Shown here piece by piece: positions 1-5,450 of a stretch of 46,060 bases of DNA. The position numbers were made by a program, and so were the translations under genes. The notes under the pieces are model-generated. The model worked only from the letters and a program-made list of their open reading frames with translations. It did no database searches and was not told the origin of the DNA. How positions within the stretch are numbered: position 1 is the first letter of the stretch; each line of letters begins with the position of its first letter. Origin of the DNA: an uncultured Candidatus Marinamargulisbacteria bacterium (lineage in GTDB: Bacteria > Margulisbacteria > Riflemargulisbacteria > GWF2-35-9); the NCBI GenBank assembly GCA_903910705.1, contig CAIWAN010000031.1, positions 1-46,060 on the forward strand, given 5' to 3'.

Positions 1-28
1 ATATTTTGACTTGTTGATTTTTGATCAT
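1..28 (-). CDS. Start of IstA-like transposase (partial)
   Basis: Only nine codons are inside the window, reading MIKNQQVKI from ATG at 28. An AAAAGGAGC ribosome site (34-42) sits five bases upstream. IstA proteins of the IS21 family often begin with a short M-I-x-x-x-x-V-K-like stretch leading to a helix-turn-helix, and the upstream direct repeats fit. The rest lies beyond position 1, so the product is inferred mainly from context. Confidence 0.5.
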
Positions 29-139
29 TAATTGCTCCTTTTACGGATCCAATGATCTCGTTCAACCACACTATCAAACATCCTCAGAAAAGGGGAATTC
101 TAATTGTCGTCAGGTGGGAATTCTAATTGTCGCTCATCA
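1..139 (-). mobile_element. Partial IS21-family-like insertion sequence end
   Basis: Two perfect 17-bp direct repeats lie at 93-109 and 116-132 (period 23 bp), followed inward by a leader and a start codon with a strong ribosome site at about 34-42. IS21-family elements have repeated subterminal transposase sites just inside their ends and then istA. Read on the minus strand, the outer edge is a TGA at about 139-137, directly after the point where the neighbouring ATPase gene loses its reading frame. The rest of the element, its other end and the target duplication are outside the window. The family assignment is inference from layout and from the start of the encoded peptide. Confidence 0.6.
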
Positions 140-3100
140 CATGGTCATGATAACCCCAAACCCGTTCTGTGACTGCTTATCTGTCAGAGCTTCGTTGAGT
201 TTGCCTTCCAGAATCCCTGACGGCAGCACGTTGGGCTCGCTGAGGATAAACTTAAAGCCCATTTTTCTGGCGATGTCGATTTTCTCAAAGATGGGGTCAT
301 AGTCGGTAGAGGCGTTTTCGTGAAAGAACACTTTCTTCGATTGGTTGTAGTCTTCTTGCTCATCTGGACTCAAAGTAAGATAGGTAGCGTAGTCGATATA
401 ACCTGCTGTACGCAAGGTCGCCGCAGTTATTGCATCCTTGCCTACACCAGGTTCACCCTCAAAAATTAGCAAAGACTTGCCTTTGTTGTCTGACTGTATA
501 AAATGATGCGTCGAAGCCATCATCGCTCGGCTTTGATCATTTAGCGATATCTTGTCGCCATAGGTTGCTATCTTTGTGAATGTTTCCTCTAACGCTAAAT
601 AGGATTCTTTTAAGGGCTTATAATCATGCGGATATTTAATAGACAGCACCTCGTTAATCGCAGCCTTCATTTCTTCATCACAACCCAGCGTTGTCACCTC
701 TTGGAAGGCATACAGGAGATTGGTTTTGGCGTTGTCGGACCGGTTAATCCGAAGGGAGCGCCCCAACATTTCTTCAATATCACGCAGAGAGAGGCTCTCG
801 CTTTGCGTCATGGTCTCGAGAAGGCGAAAGAGTTGAATAGCCAGAACGCTAAGTTCTTTTTTGGTTTCCGCTTCAAGAGAGGAAGACGCGAGATATTCAT
901 CCAGAATCAGTTGGTCGAGGAACTCATTCTCAAAATCGGGCATGGTGAGGGTTACAAAGAACTCGCGGATGAACTCATGCTGGGTACGATTGGGCAGTCG
1001 GTCTTGATTACCGGTAAAGATAATCTTATGCTTATCGGAGAGGTCAAAACGTTGGCCGTTTAGGATGACATGCGGCTTGTCGGTAAACACCCCACGGAAA
1101 AGGTTCCAGAAGCCCTCTTTGGGCAAATTGGCTTCATCCACAAACAAGACGCCTTTTCCTGATTCAGCCCATCTTGAAAGCGCCCCATCCTTGGCTGAAA
1201 GCAGGGTGCTGTAAGTGGCATCCGTCCCCAATCCAATCGGTCCGAACATTTCATGTTCGTTATAACCCAATTCTTTGGCAATTTTATCGCATAGAAATGT
1301 TTTGCCTCGACCAGGGGGGCCTTTTAACATGAGGGCACTGTAGTTTCTTAAGATTTCTACTCCCCGATTAAAGCGAATCTGCCAACGAAACAGCGGCGGT
1401 GCTTTCGGGCGAGCTTGCCAAGTTAGTTTGTCATCGGTTTCGATGGGGTCAGCTTGAGGGTATTTTGCCTGCCAAAACGCTTGCCAATCCTTGTCGGGGG
1501 TTAAGTGTCCGAGGGCCTGCTTGATTAAATCAAGCCCATTGTGTGTCGTTGTTTTGAATGTCGTTTCAAGGGACAGGGCCTTTAGCCGGTCGGTGCTGAC
1601 CGTGTCCATAAGCTGCCAATACACATCGTCCAAGGTATCTCGAGGATTCAATTGGCCAAGCACCTCATCGAGGTTGGCTTGGTGAACTGAATTCGCTTTT
1701 TGTGGGTTGTAGCCCAAAAGCATCTTGCATTGAACCGACAAGAACGCTTGGATTTCAGGGGCCTCGGTATAGGCTTCCCCGAATACATTCATGATGGCGC
1801 GATACCAAGCTTTGGGTGATATTTTAGAGTTTGTGAAATTTAGTTGCTTTAATACTTGAACATAGCGTTCATACGTCTGACCAATCTCAGCGGGGAATTC
1901 TTTGTCCGCTGGCTTGGGTGTGGTGCTCAGCCGCTCGATGATTGTCGTCAACGTGTCATAGTTTTCATCTGTCAGCCCCGTAAATTGCTTTAATAGGAGC
2001 GTCTTTTGTATCGCCCCTTCGGACTCATGGGGTTCGTATGCGGTTTTGGGATGGAGTTTATTTCGCTTATCGATAAGAACCAAACTCCCCTTCAGTGAAC
2101 GCAGAAAAATCCGCTCTCCGTTTACGAGCAAGTAAGGGTCGGGTAAGAGCAGTGAGCCGAGGTCGCTGAGCAGTTCATCGTTTTGATGAAGATGGGAAAA
2201 GACAACGGTTTTCCCCTCTCTTAAGGCTTGAAGGAGATGGTTCTCTTGTTGAGTAGAGGTGTACCCGTCGTCATCTTGAACACTATTGATTTGCTCCCAC
2301 TGTTGATTATACGACACAAAGGACGAAAGGCTCGCCATTTCGACATTTTCTTTTCCAAATCGGTCGGAGACATAGTCAAGGAGCATATTTTCATCTTGCC
2401 CCCGAAAAACCAACACACTCCCCGCTTGAAGCGTTTCGGGCATTGGCTTAGATTCACTGGGGATTATCGAGTGCGTAACAGCCTTCCAATCATCCTCCGT
2501 AAGAAAATCAGGTTTTTTAACATTTGGGGCGATCTCGAGGCGATGTTTGATAGGCGAACAAGCGATTTCTTTCCAAACATGAGGGGGTAAATCGTCGGCA
2601 ATATAGAGAATAGCATCTTTCTCAGACAAGAGGCCCTGTAGGGACGTATTTTCATTATTCTCTATCTTGTTTCGTCTCGAAAGCAGGTGGGTATTGTTGT
2701 TATGTATCAACCAACGATTTGCCGTTTCCTCGCTTGGCAACGACACCGTGTGCCCCTTCCAAAGCTCCGCATATTCGGGTTCGGGCGTCTCAACTATTTG
2801 GCGAGCAAAATCAAGTTTAAAAAATTCGCCGTTATAGGTGATGCCCCCGTGACGGGTAATATCCGTAAAGAATCGCTGGACAAACGGGTCATTCCAATCG
2901 AGTCCACTGATACTGAGCGACTGCGTATTTCGCGAAGCTTGAAGAAGAGGGCCTTCAGCAAACGTAATGTGCTTTTTTTCAAAACGGTATTGCCCCAAGA
3001 GGATATCTTTCCAATCGGGGCTACCCAACAAGTCAATATGGGCGGTTTTCTGATTGTGCAACTTCTTTTCTTCGCTGATACTGTGATGAAGGGTGACGTC

Positions 3101-3565
3101 CGGCCCCTTAAACTCAAAATCAGCATTAGACCGTGAAAGAACCGCATTATCCGCATCCTCGAAACTTTTTATCGCTCCGATAATCTTGACATTTTTATGA
3201 AGCAGAACCCCTTTAAACTTGGGAGGCTTATCAAAAAGTTCATGCAATTCAATCTTAAACTTTGAATCCGTCCCCTCATAATCAATGAGCAAAACGCCGC
3301 CATCACGGATAATGTTCATGAACAGGCTTTCGGTTGCCACGATCTTTCCGTTCACCAGCTTCGTGGCAGTCATTAAGGCATTCACGTCGCGGCGGTTGCG
3401 TAACGTCACTTGCAAAAAGGGCGTGTTGTCACGTTGGCATTCTTGATAGACGGCTTGGTTAAGTGCAGCCACCGATGATGTTGCCACCAACGCGCGCTCA
3501 GAAGCCAGCATGTCACGAATCAACTGCGAGGTTGGCTCTCTTAAAGATATTATTTTTCTTCCCAC
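137..3565 (-). CDS. Tandem-AAA+ ATPase (dynein/midasin-like), 3' end lost to the IS
   Basis: This 1142-residue protein appears to contain four AAA+ modules in series. Module 3 is intact: Walker A GPPGRGKT near residue 749 and Walker B GVLFVDEAN near 804. Module 4 has Walker A GEPGVGKD near 1036 and a Walker-B-like KKVFFHENAS near 1073, then stops at VIMTM, where family members continue with a sensor-1 Asn-Pro. Two N-terminal modules look degenerate (GVLLIDYEG in the first; VNGERIFL in the second, parallel to LNGQRFDL in module 3). The stop codon falls on the IS end, so the gene is probably truncated. The start is GTG at 3565 without a clear ribosome site. The substrate is unknown. It lies 52 bp downstream of the SPFH gene and may share its transcript. 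Confidence 0.7.
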   Translation of the reverse strand: MGRKIISLREPTSQLIRDMLASERALVATSSVAALNQAVYQECQRDNTPFLQVTLRNRRDVNALMTATKLVNGKIVATESLFMNIIRDGGVLLIDYEGTDSKFKIELHELFDKPPKFKGVLLHKNVKIIGAIKSFEDADNAVLSRSNADFEFKGPDVTLHHSISEEKKLHNQKTAHIDLLGSPDWKDILLGQYRFEKKHITFAEGPLLQASRNTQSLSISGLDWNDPFVQRFFTDITRHGGITYNGEFFKLDFARQIVETPEPEYAELWKGHTVSLPSEETANRWLIHNNNTHLLSRRNKIENNENTSLQGLLSEKDAILYIADDLPPHVWKEIACSPIKHRLEIAPNVKKPDFLTEDDWKAVTHSIIPSESKPMPETLQAGSVLVFRGQDENMLLDYVSDRFGKENVEMASLSSFVSYNQQWEQINSVQDDDGYTSTQQENHLLQALREGKTVVFSHLHQNDELLSDLGSLLLPDPYLLVNGERIFLRSLKGSLVLIDKRNKLHPKTAYEPHESEGAIQKTLLLKQFTGLTDENYDTLTTIIERLSTTPKPADKEFPAEIGQTYERYVQVLKQLNFTNSKISPKAWYRAIMNVFGEAYTEAPEIQAFLSVQCKMLLGYNPQKANSVHQANLDEVLGQLNPRDTLDDVYWQLMDTVSTDRLKALSLETTFKTTTHNGLDLIKQALGHLTPDKDWQAFWQAKYPQADPIETDDKLTWQARPKAPPLFRWQIRFNRGVEILRNYSALMLKGPPGRGKTFLCDKIAKELGYNEHEMFGPIGLGTDATYSTLLSAKDGALSRWAESGKGVLFVDEANLPKEGFWNLFRGVFTDKPHVILNGQRFDLSDKHKIIFTGNQDRLPNRTQHEFIREFFVTLTMPDFENEFLDQLILDEYLASSSLEAETKKELSVLAIQLFRLLETMTQSESLSLRDIEEMLGRSLRINRSDNAKTNLLYAFQEVTTLGCDEEMKAAINEVLSIKYPHDYKPLKESYLALEETFTKIATYGDKISLNDQSRAMMASTHHFIQSDNKGKSLLIFEGEPGVGKDAITAATLRTAGYIDYATYLTLSPDEQEDYNQSKKVFFHENASTDYDPIFEKIDIARKMGFKFILSEPNVLPSGILEGKLNEALTDKQSQNGFGVIMTM

Positions 3566-3617
3566 AAAATGTTTATGCCCAGAAACAGCCGAGCATAAAC
3601 GTGGGGTGAGGGCTCCC

Positions 3618-4481
3618 TTATCCTATTTTCACAGGGGTTATTCCCGCCATATCGCCGATAATATTTATAAGCTGCTGATTATTGGGGATGACGATCTTCG
3701 CATTGTCTTTCATGGATCGCTCAACGGCTTCTAGTTTTCTAAGAATTTGCGCATTGCCGACAAAATATTTTTCGGCGGCCTCATTCACCGTCTTGATGGC
3801 TTGGGCTTCACCTTCTGCTTCAAGAATACGAGCCTGTTTAATGCCTTCTGCTTTCTTGATCTCGGCTCGTTTTTGACCGTCAGCCACGGTTTCGGTTGCG
3901 GTCGCAAAATCGATCGCCGCGATCTTTTCGTTCTCGGCTTTGACAACCTTGTTCATGGTTTCCTGAACATCCTTGGGCGGATTGATTTCCTTAAGTTCGG
4001 CCCTGACGATATCTAAGCCCCAGTTATTGGTTTCGACTAAAAGCGTGCGGAGCAGCTCAGCATTGATCGTATTGCGTTCACTATTAGCGGCTTTAAGCGT
4101 CATAGTGCCAATGATGTTTCGCAAGGTTGTTCGGGTCAAATTGACGATCTGGGAGGCGTAGTTGTTCGCGTTATAGATCGCTTTTTTGACATCATCCTCG
4201 GTGGCTTTGACTTTATAATAGATCTGAGCATCAACGATCGCATTTAAATTATCGTTGGTAATGATCTCTTGGGGTTCGGCTTCGACGAGCGTTTCCGTAA
4301 TATTCACGGGGTATAGATTTTCAATAAGTGGAATGATCCAATTAAAACCAGGCTGCGCGAATCGTCGATATTTGCCTAAAAACTCAATAAGGCCTCGCTC
4401 CGTTGGACGTAAGATACGAATGCCTAGAACAAAAACAACGGCTGCGATCACGATCAAAAAAAATATGAGTGCTTGTGTCAT
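3618..4481 (-). CDS. SPFH/stomatin-like membrane protein (QmcA type)
   Basis: A 287-residue protein with one N-terminal membrane helix (about residues 4-24), an SPFH/band-7 domain (about 22-190, with the typical RPTERGLIEFLGKY start) and an Ala/Glu/Lys-rich coiled coil (about 185-250, including KKAEGIKQARILEAEGEAQA). Such proteins oligomerise at the inner membrane, organise microdomains and often partner with proteases or AAA+ proteins. The start is supported by AAAGGAG seven bases upstream. It sits between the Fic gene (57 bp upstream) and the tandem-AAA+ gene (52 bp downstream) on the same strand. The family is certain; the exact role is not. Confidence 0.9.
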   Translation of the reverse strand: MTQALIFFLIVIAAVVFVLGIRILRPTERGLIEFLGKYRRFAQPGFNWIIPLIENLYPVNITETLVEAEPQEIITNDNLNAIVDAQIYYKVKATEDDVKKAIYNANNYASQIVNLTRTTLRNIIGTMTLKAANSERNTINAELLRTLLVETNNWGLDIVRAELKEINPPKDVQETMNKVVKAENEKIAAIDFATATETVADGQKRAEIKKAEGIKQARILEAEGEAQAIKTVNEAAEKYFVGNAQILRKLEAVERSMKDNAKIVIPNNQQLINIIGDMAGITPVKIG

Positions 4482-4538
4482 TTATTTCTCCTTTGGTTTA
4501 TTATTTAATACGTCGAGTGAGGTCTTCCTCCTTTATGA

Positions 4539-5321
4539 TTATTCAAAATACTTCGTCATTTCATCTAAGGATCGATTCACGGAACTGAAAATAATATCAT
4601 ATAAGTCAGCCCTGTCTTTGGATAGAAAAGACGTCTCTAGCGATTCAAAATAGCGAATTCTATCTTCACTTTTGATGATCGAAACAGGAAATTTATGAAT
4701 GAGTAAAATCAAATTCATAAGTAACCTCGCCGTTCGGCCATTTCCATCTAAGAAGGGATGAATACCCAGCAGTGTTGTGTGGACATCGGCTGCAATTTTA
4801 ATCGGATGACCGTCTTGATTATATTTAAGATAGTCTACAAGCTCTCTCATAAGCGAGGGGACCTGATCGTAGTGCGGCCTTTCATAGTTTGAACCTCCAA
4901 CGTGAACGATCGTACGTCGATAAATTCCAGCCCAATCACTCATATCGTTAAGAACCAAACGATTAATCTCTTTTATGTTATCCTCGGAAATATATTGATG
5001 TGACGTATATTGATCTGAGAGATGAAGAGTATAGGTCATGGCTTTCTCGTGATTCAAGGCTTCGATCTGATCCTTGAGGGGCTTATTGATCACGGCGTTT
5101 AATCCACGGTCTAACAATTCCGCTGTTTCACCTTTCGTTAAGGTATTCCCCTCTATTGTATTGGAGTGATAGGTTAGCTCCACTTTTGCCCAATGAATAA
5201 AATCCTCTTTTATCTCCTTAGCAAGGGGGAAATGGGGCGATAGATTGCTTTGTTTTTCCTCAAGTGTTTTGAGTAAGACTTGATTTGGCTTACTCATCGA
5301 GGCGGCTTCACGGTCTAACAT
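4539..5321 (-). CDS. Fic family protein (probable AMP transferase)
   Basis: A 260-residue Fic-domain protein. The catalytic motif HPFLDGNGRTAR (residues 188-199) is complete, including the His. An N-terminal inhibitory-helix motif S53-x-x-x-E57-G58 matches the [S/T]xxxE[G/N] signature of self-inhibited Fic enzymes, which modify target proteins with AMP and often remove it too. The protein ends shortly after the Fic domain, with no DNA-binding tail. AAGGAG seven bases before the ATG at 5321 supports this start over an internal Met at residue 9. No antitoxin gene is adjacent, consistent with built-in inhibition. The target protein cannot be deduced. Confidence 0.9.
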   Translation of the reverse strand: MLDREAASMSKPNQVLLKTLEEKQSNLSPHFPLAKEIKEDFIHWAKVELTYHSNTIEGNTLTKGETAELLDRGLNAVINKPLKDQIEALNHEKAMTYTLHLSDQYTSHQYISEDNIKEINRLVLNDMSDWAGIYRRTIVHVGGSNYERPHYDQVPSLMRELVDYLKYNQDGHPIKIAADVHTTLLGIHPFLDGNGRTARLLMNLILLIHKFPVSIIKSEDRIRYFESLETSFLSKDRADLYDIIFSSVNRSLDEMTKYFE

Positions 5322-5397
5322 TATCTGGCTCCTTCATGTTACTTGATAATTACCATTTGCTGTTATCAATAGTATCACTACCCCATACCCCTTGCCA

Positions 5398-5419
5398 ATT
5401 TTCGCTACGTGGCGAAAAT
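5398..5419 (-). terminator. Stem-loop downstream of sulP (weak terminator candidate)
   Basis: A perfect 8-bp inverted repeat, ATTTTCGC and GCGAAAAT around a 6-base loop, lies 32 bp past the sulP stop and 77 bp before the Fic start. No uninterrupted T-run follows, so it may be a weak terminator or an mRNA 3' stabiliser. It marks the boundary between the long operon tail and the Fic/SPFH/AAA group. Confidence 0.35.
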
Positions 5420-5450
5420 CTCTGGCCTCTTGCATGGATCAGGAGCGTTT

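Follow-up and report, generated by a model that had tools for sequence, protein, structure and literature searches.

Members of the IS21 family such as IS21, IS5376 and ISMyo2 share 5′-TG...CA-3′ termini, an istA gene just inside the left end and a short duplication of the target, and their published layout has two repeats at each end (PMC10122671). The element described here is like them in all of these respects. It differs in that its target duplications measure 6–7 bp, whereas 5 bp was observed for the element of PMC10122671, and in that it has no nucleotide match in plasmid records or in 73 other genomes of the phylum. The gene into which it is inserted resembles the AAA_5/dynein-related, midasin-like large AAA+ proteins: Pfam AAA and AAA_5 both recognise its first module, two P-loops are present, and the presumed sensor-1 strand is followed by Asn and then by ALINR. 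Unlike these proteins, it carries an HEMGH sequence and leucine-rich repeats in its C-terminal part. Our reading, to which we give a probability of roughly 0.96, is that a member of the IS21 family has transposed into a gene of about 2,360 codons, which encodes a multi-module AAA+ protein, and interrupts it midway. Both ends of the element, the start of istA, the ACCATG duplication, the shared reading frame of the gene halves and the order of genes in a relative are seen directly. As in studied IS21 elements, IstA would synapse both IS ends, and these would be joined to a staggered 6-bp cut in the target with the help of IstB.

The stretch of DNA analysed (the window, 46,060 nucleotides) corresponds to contig C31, one of 119 in a 2.2-Mb assembly, and breaks off inside the IS repeat. 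The left end of the element occupies positions 1–139 on the minus strand, IS position p corresponding to window position 140 − p, and its minus-strand reading starts TGATGAGCGACAATTAGAATTCCCACCTGACGACAATTAGAATTCCCC.... Whole or partial copies of 1–139, identical or 99% identical, lie at ten contig termini, the window and nine others; one variant base in the 139 bp is common to four copies. In comparisons within the assembly, identity with other contigs always breaks off at position 139. Because it stops exactly there, the boundary can be placed at 139/140, and 1–139 is a multi-copy repeat and not a chance resemblance. The end consists of an outer terminal repeat, L1 (TGATGAGCGACAATTAGAATTCCC, 116–139, minus strand), and an inner terminal repeat of 17 nt, L2 (93–109, minus strand), which is an exact copy of 116–132; the two exact copies are 23 nt apart. 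The first three bases of L1, TGA (137–139), also serve as stop codon for the truncated ATPase, which ends VIMTM. A preliminary description of the window had claimed an IS-type end directly after VIMTM, two 17-bp direct repeats and a stop codon supplied by the IS, and each of these observations holds at the positions given here.

The opposite end of the element, which that description had proposed to look for, was found at the start of contig C20. Right ends were located by searching the assembly for GACAATTAGAATTCCC, allowing at most three mismatches. In addition to the left ends, this returned nine contig termini that carry GTCAATTAGAATTCCC with TGTTCAGCGTCAATTATTATTTCCCCTCAGC directly before it, and the right end is likewise built of two repeats, TGTTCAGCGTCAATTA and the second copy GTCAATTAGAATTCCC. 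Over the bases present, the nine right ends do not differ from one another. The right terminus equals L1 at 18 of 24 positions, as in imperfect terminal inverted repeats with two repeats at each end. The ten left and nine right ends belong to one element and nearly all lie at contig termini. Their near-identity indicates that the IS copies are young. In a nucleotide search with the IS through 74 genomes of the phylum, plasmids and viral contigs, the own genome alone was matched.

Inside the left end, the ATG of istA at IS position 112 (window position 28) opens a frame. Its first codons (MIKNQQVKI...; 1–28, minus strand) read ATGATCAAAAAT... in window 28–1 and continue on contig C32, which holds a further 178 bases of the element and where the frame reads MIKNQQVKILWRCMNMGKTQEVSAAKSDMDTKTARKYIRSRQ.... 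The istA fragment of 68 open codons (C32, L006:3–206, minus strand) was compared by tblastn with annotated istA genes of plasmid IS21 elements and showed 36–40% identity over 63–67 residues (best E 1e-6); the alignment starts at residue 1–2, and the N-terminal part alone is comparable. With 13.8 bits against an NCBIfam cut-off of 160, the fragment scores far below the cut-off because it is only 68 residues long. The match to plasmid istA genes shows that the earlier reading of an istA-like start was correct, and the start of a transposase gene is present. Of the istA and istB genes expected to the left, only this beginning of istA is in the assembly. For the element body, with the rest of istA and the whole of istB, searches of the own genome with NF033546 and NF038214 gave nothing over the cut-offs. 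Absence from an assembly is a usual fate of a collapsed repeat, and since the element body is absent, no istB match over the cut-off was seen. A frame at the right end closes with ...EKVSAIMRKEYG and a stop codon and could be the end of istB.

The 5′ part of the interrupted gene comprises 1142 codons from a GTG start (140–3565, minus strand; 3565–137 with the stop codon), codon 1142 being ATG at 140–142. The flank at the left end of the IS closes with ...ATCATGACCATG, and its last six bases, ACCATG (140–145, minus strand; codons Thr1141–Met1142), are found again after the right end on C20, alone among the nine right ends. Outside the window, the 3′ part reads from this ACCATG as an open frame of 1,219 codons (L047:139–3798, contig C20); the sequence after the right end, TMNSLDLKGRERFSSALINRSIFHRLRPYTEAEN..., is in the frame required by the ATPase and continues TMNSLDLKGRERFSSALINRS.... 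The missing C-terminal part that had been predicted thus lies directly beyond the duplication in the same frame, and the 6 bp present at both junctions fall within the 4–8 bp that had been suggested for a target duplication.

In total, the interrupted gene of about 2,360 codons contains AAA+ modules, an HExxH motif and leucine-rich repeats; its halves were searched and described separately, not as a joined protein. In the 5′ part, P-loops occur at residues 749 (GPPGRGKT) and 1037 (GEPGVGKD). The first module (residues 745–854) matches Pfam AAA with 26.9 bits (cut-off 21.2) and AAA_5 with 25.4 bits (cut-off 22), and no Pfam match of its own was obtained for the second module around residue 1037. 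A single-sequence structure model of residues 700–1142 was poor (mean pLDDT 41.8) and was set aside. Consistent with the claim that the gene is cut at its sensor-1 motif, the break falls between the strand VIMTM and the Asn of the second AAA+ module. Asn-Pro had been expected after the motif, but C20 continues with Asn-Ser and then ALINR. The labels sensor-1 and arginine finger are applied by general analogy with AAA+ proteins rather than from a structure. The 3′ part carries HEMGH at residues 169–173 and leucine-rich repeats past residue 800. In a search for a peptidase domain in this part, no Pfam peptidase family was matched at E up to 1, the peptidase M41 domain that follows the AAA+ module in FtsH-type metalloproteases included; apart from the leucine-rich repeats, the 3′ part has no family match. 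Matches to XopAE and to plant receptors cover the leucine-rich repeats only and were rejected as indications of function. Relatives of the ATPase were found neither in plasmids nor in viral contigs or genome contigs, and among the genomes of relatives the sole match was a generic AAA+ module in G001. Full-length homologues that also end at VIMTM would have spoken against an interruption; because the ATPase has no relatives in the searched collections, the answer is simply that no homologue was found. The third-position GC is 0.50–0.54 in the 5′ half (window 140–3565) versus 0.32–0.42 in the 3′ half (L047:142–3798), a drop that is perhaps the trace of an older fusion inside the gene.

The IS opens with TGA right after codon 1142, which terminates translation of the first half. 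Across the cut lie the sensor-1 Asn, the arginine-finger region (ALINR), HEMGH and the leucine-rich repeats. Judging from this anatomy, the gene has most likely lost its function as a single protein. It is improbable that the two halves still function as separate chains, the second starting from the ATG of the duplication, and that the insertion is tolerated; such an outcome would alter the effect of the insertion but not its nature. Each half has more than 1,100 codons without a stop, and the target duplication provides an ATG, which is the second codon of the 3′ part. However, a young insertion also predicts long open frames, and the second AAA+ module is itself cut. In addition, the first 300 bases of C20 contain no promoter-like site, and no Shine-Dalgarno sequence was seen by eye at the usual distance before the ATG of the 3′ half. 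The insertion had been proposed to be recent, and the near-identical IS copies and the 1,142 and 1,219 stop-free codons that flank it agree with this.

Terminal duplications pair left and right ends of the element at five sites: ACCATG, ACGGAT, ATTAAA and GACAAA (6 bp) and TTTATTC (7 bp). At random positions in the same flanks, 0.023 matches of a 6-mer duplication would be expected. In the pairs C83/C36 and C12/C109, open frames enter the IS from both sides. No partner was found by duplication for five of the ten left ends (C1, C32, C44, C91, C92) and four of the nine right ends (C15, C97, C106, C107); the reason may be that contigs are missing or that copies have recombined, and the partnerless ends mean that rearrangement may have occurred elsewhere in the genome.

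Independently of the duplication, gene order supports C31 and C20 as neighbours. In G001, a genome of the same genus, one contig (C195) carries the order HK-QueA-SulP-ThrC-Lrp-aminotransferase-further gene, with a gap of 116 bases between SulP and ThrC. Here, HK, QueA and SulP lie at window 9738–5451, and ThrC, Lrp, the aminotransferase and the further gene at L047 8419–11999 on C20. G002 and G003 show the same order as G001 without SulP. The comparison with an IS-free relative, which had been recommended, thus joins the two contigs, and the chromosome most likely runs from C31 through the IS to C20. The SulP frame of G001 (L168:3907–5635) is broken near codon 296 into two overlapping ORFs; it is intact in the window.

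Counted against the IS21 insertion are the absent element body, the low-scoring istA fragment, the partnerless ends, the third-position GC difference and the lack of any contig in the assembly that spans the whole insertion. The split might be an artefact of assembly or binning, a repeat end having been misattached to the ATPase contig while the cell has an unbroken gene. C31 does end in a multi-copy repeat, but a random misjoin would not create the same 6-bp duplication at both junctions; moreover, the halves meet in one frame and four other sites of the element are also duplicated, which makes an artefact very unlikely. That C31 and C20 were joined by recombination between two IS copies instead of one simple insertion could be suspected from the nine partnerless ends (five left, four right), but is highly unlikely for these two contigs, where both copies of the duplication are preserved, the frame continues from one half into the other and the genes are ordered as in G001.

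Around the IS21 insertion, between SulP and ThrC, lies an island (window 137–5450 and L047:139–8361) that measures about 13.5 kb when the IS is left out; it is missing at this place in G001, G002 and G003. Its genes encode Fic, SPFH, the split giant AAA+/leucine-rich-repeat protein, NYN, HsdS, RhuM and HsdM, and no HsdR gene was seen within it. The first gene after SulP, for a Fic/DOC protein (4539–5321, minus strand; Pfam PF02661, E 5.5e-22), is missing between SulP and ThrC in G001. An SPFH/Band 7 gene (3618–4481, minus strand; Pfam PF01145, E 3.7e-36) lies directly upstream of the ATPase gene; its homologues in G001 and G002 are located on other contigs and show 94–97% amino-acid identity. 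The NYN protein corresponds to PADLOC HEC-09 (E 2.3e-54). It is conceivable, if rather unlikely, that the interrupted gene encodes an undescribed kind of giant AAA+/HExxH/leucine-rich-repeat protein which acts together with its neighbours (Fic, SPFH, NYN and type I restriction-modification) as a defence island, and that the IS21 element has just deprived this lineage of it.

The IS21 insertion is ordinary, though far better documented than is usual in a draft assembly; the struck gene and the surrounding island are the less ordinary part. A broken gene in a fragmented draft can be ordered from target duplications together with the gene order of a relative, and 19 contig ends of this assembly trace to one element. 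Without this reading, annotators would enter two unrelated proteins. The element is one more IS21 member, from an uncultured-looking lineage, and the struck gene, for which our searches returned no relative, may merit its own study. On contig C92 (L064), a reading frame that stays open for about 2,797 codons begins directly at an IS21 left end and is probably a second very large gene struck by the same element.
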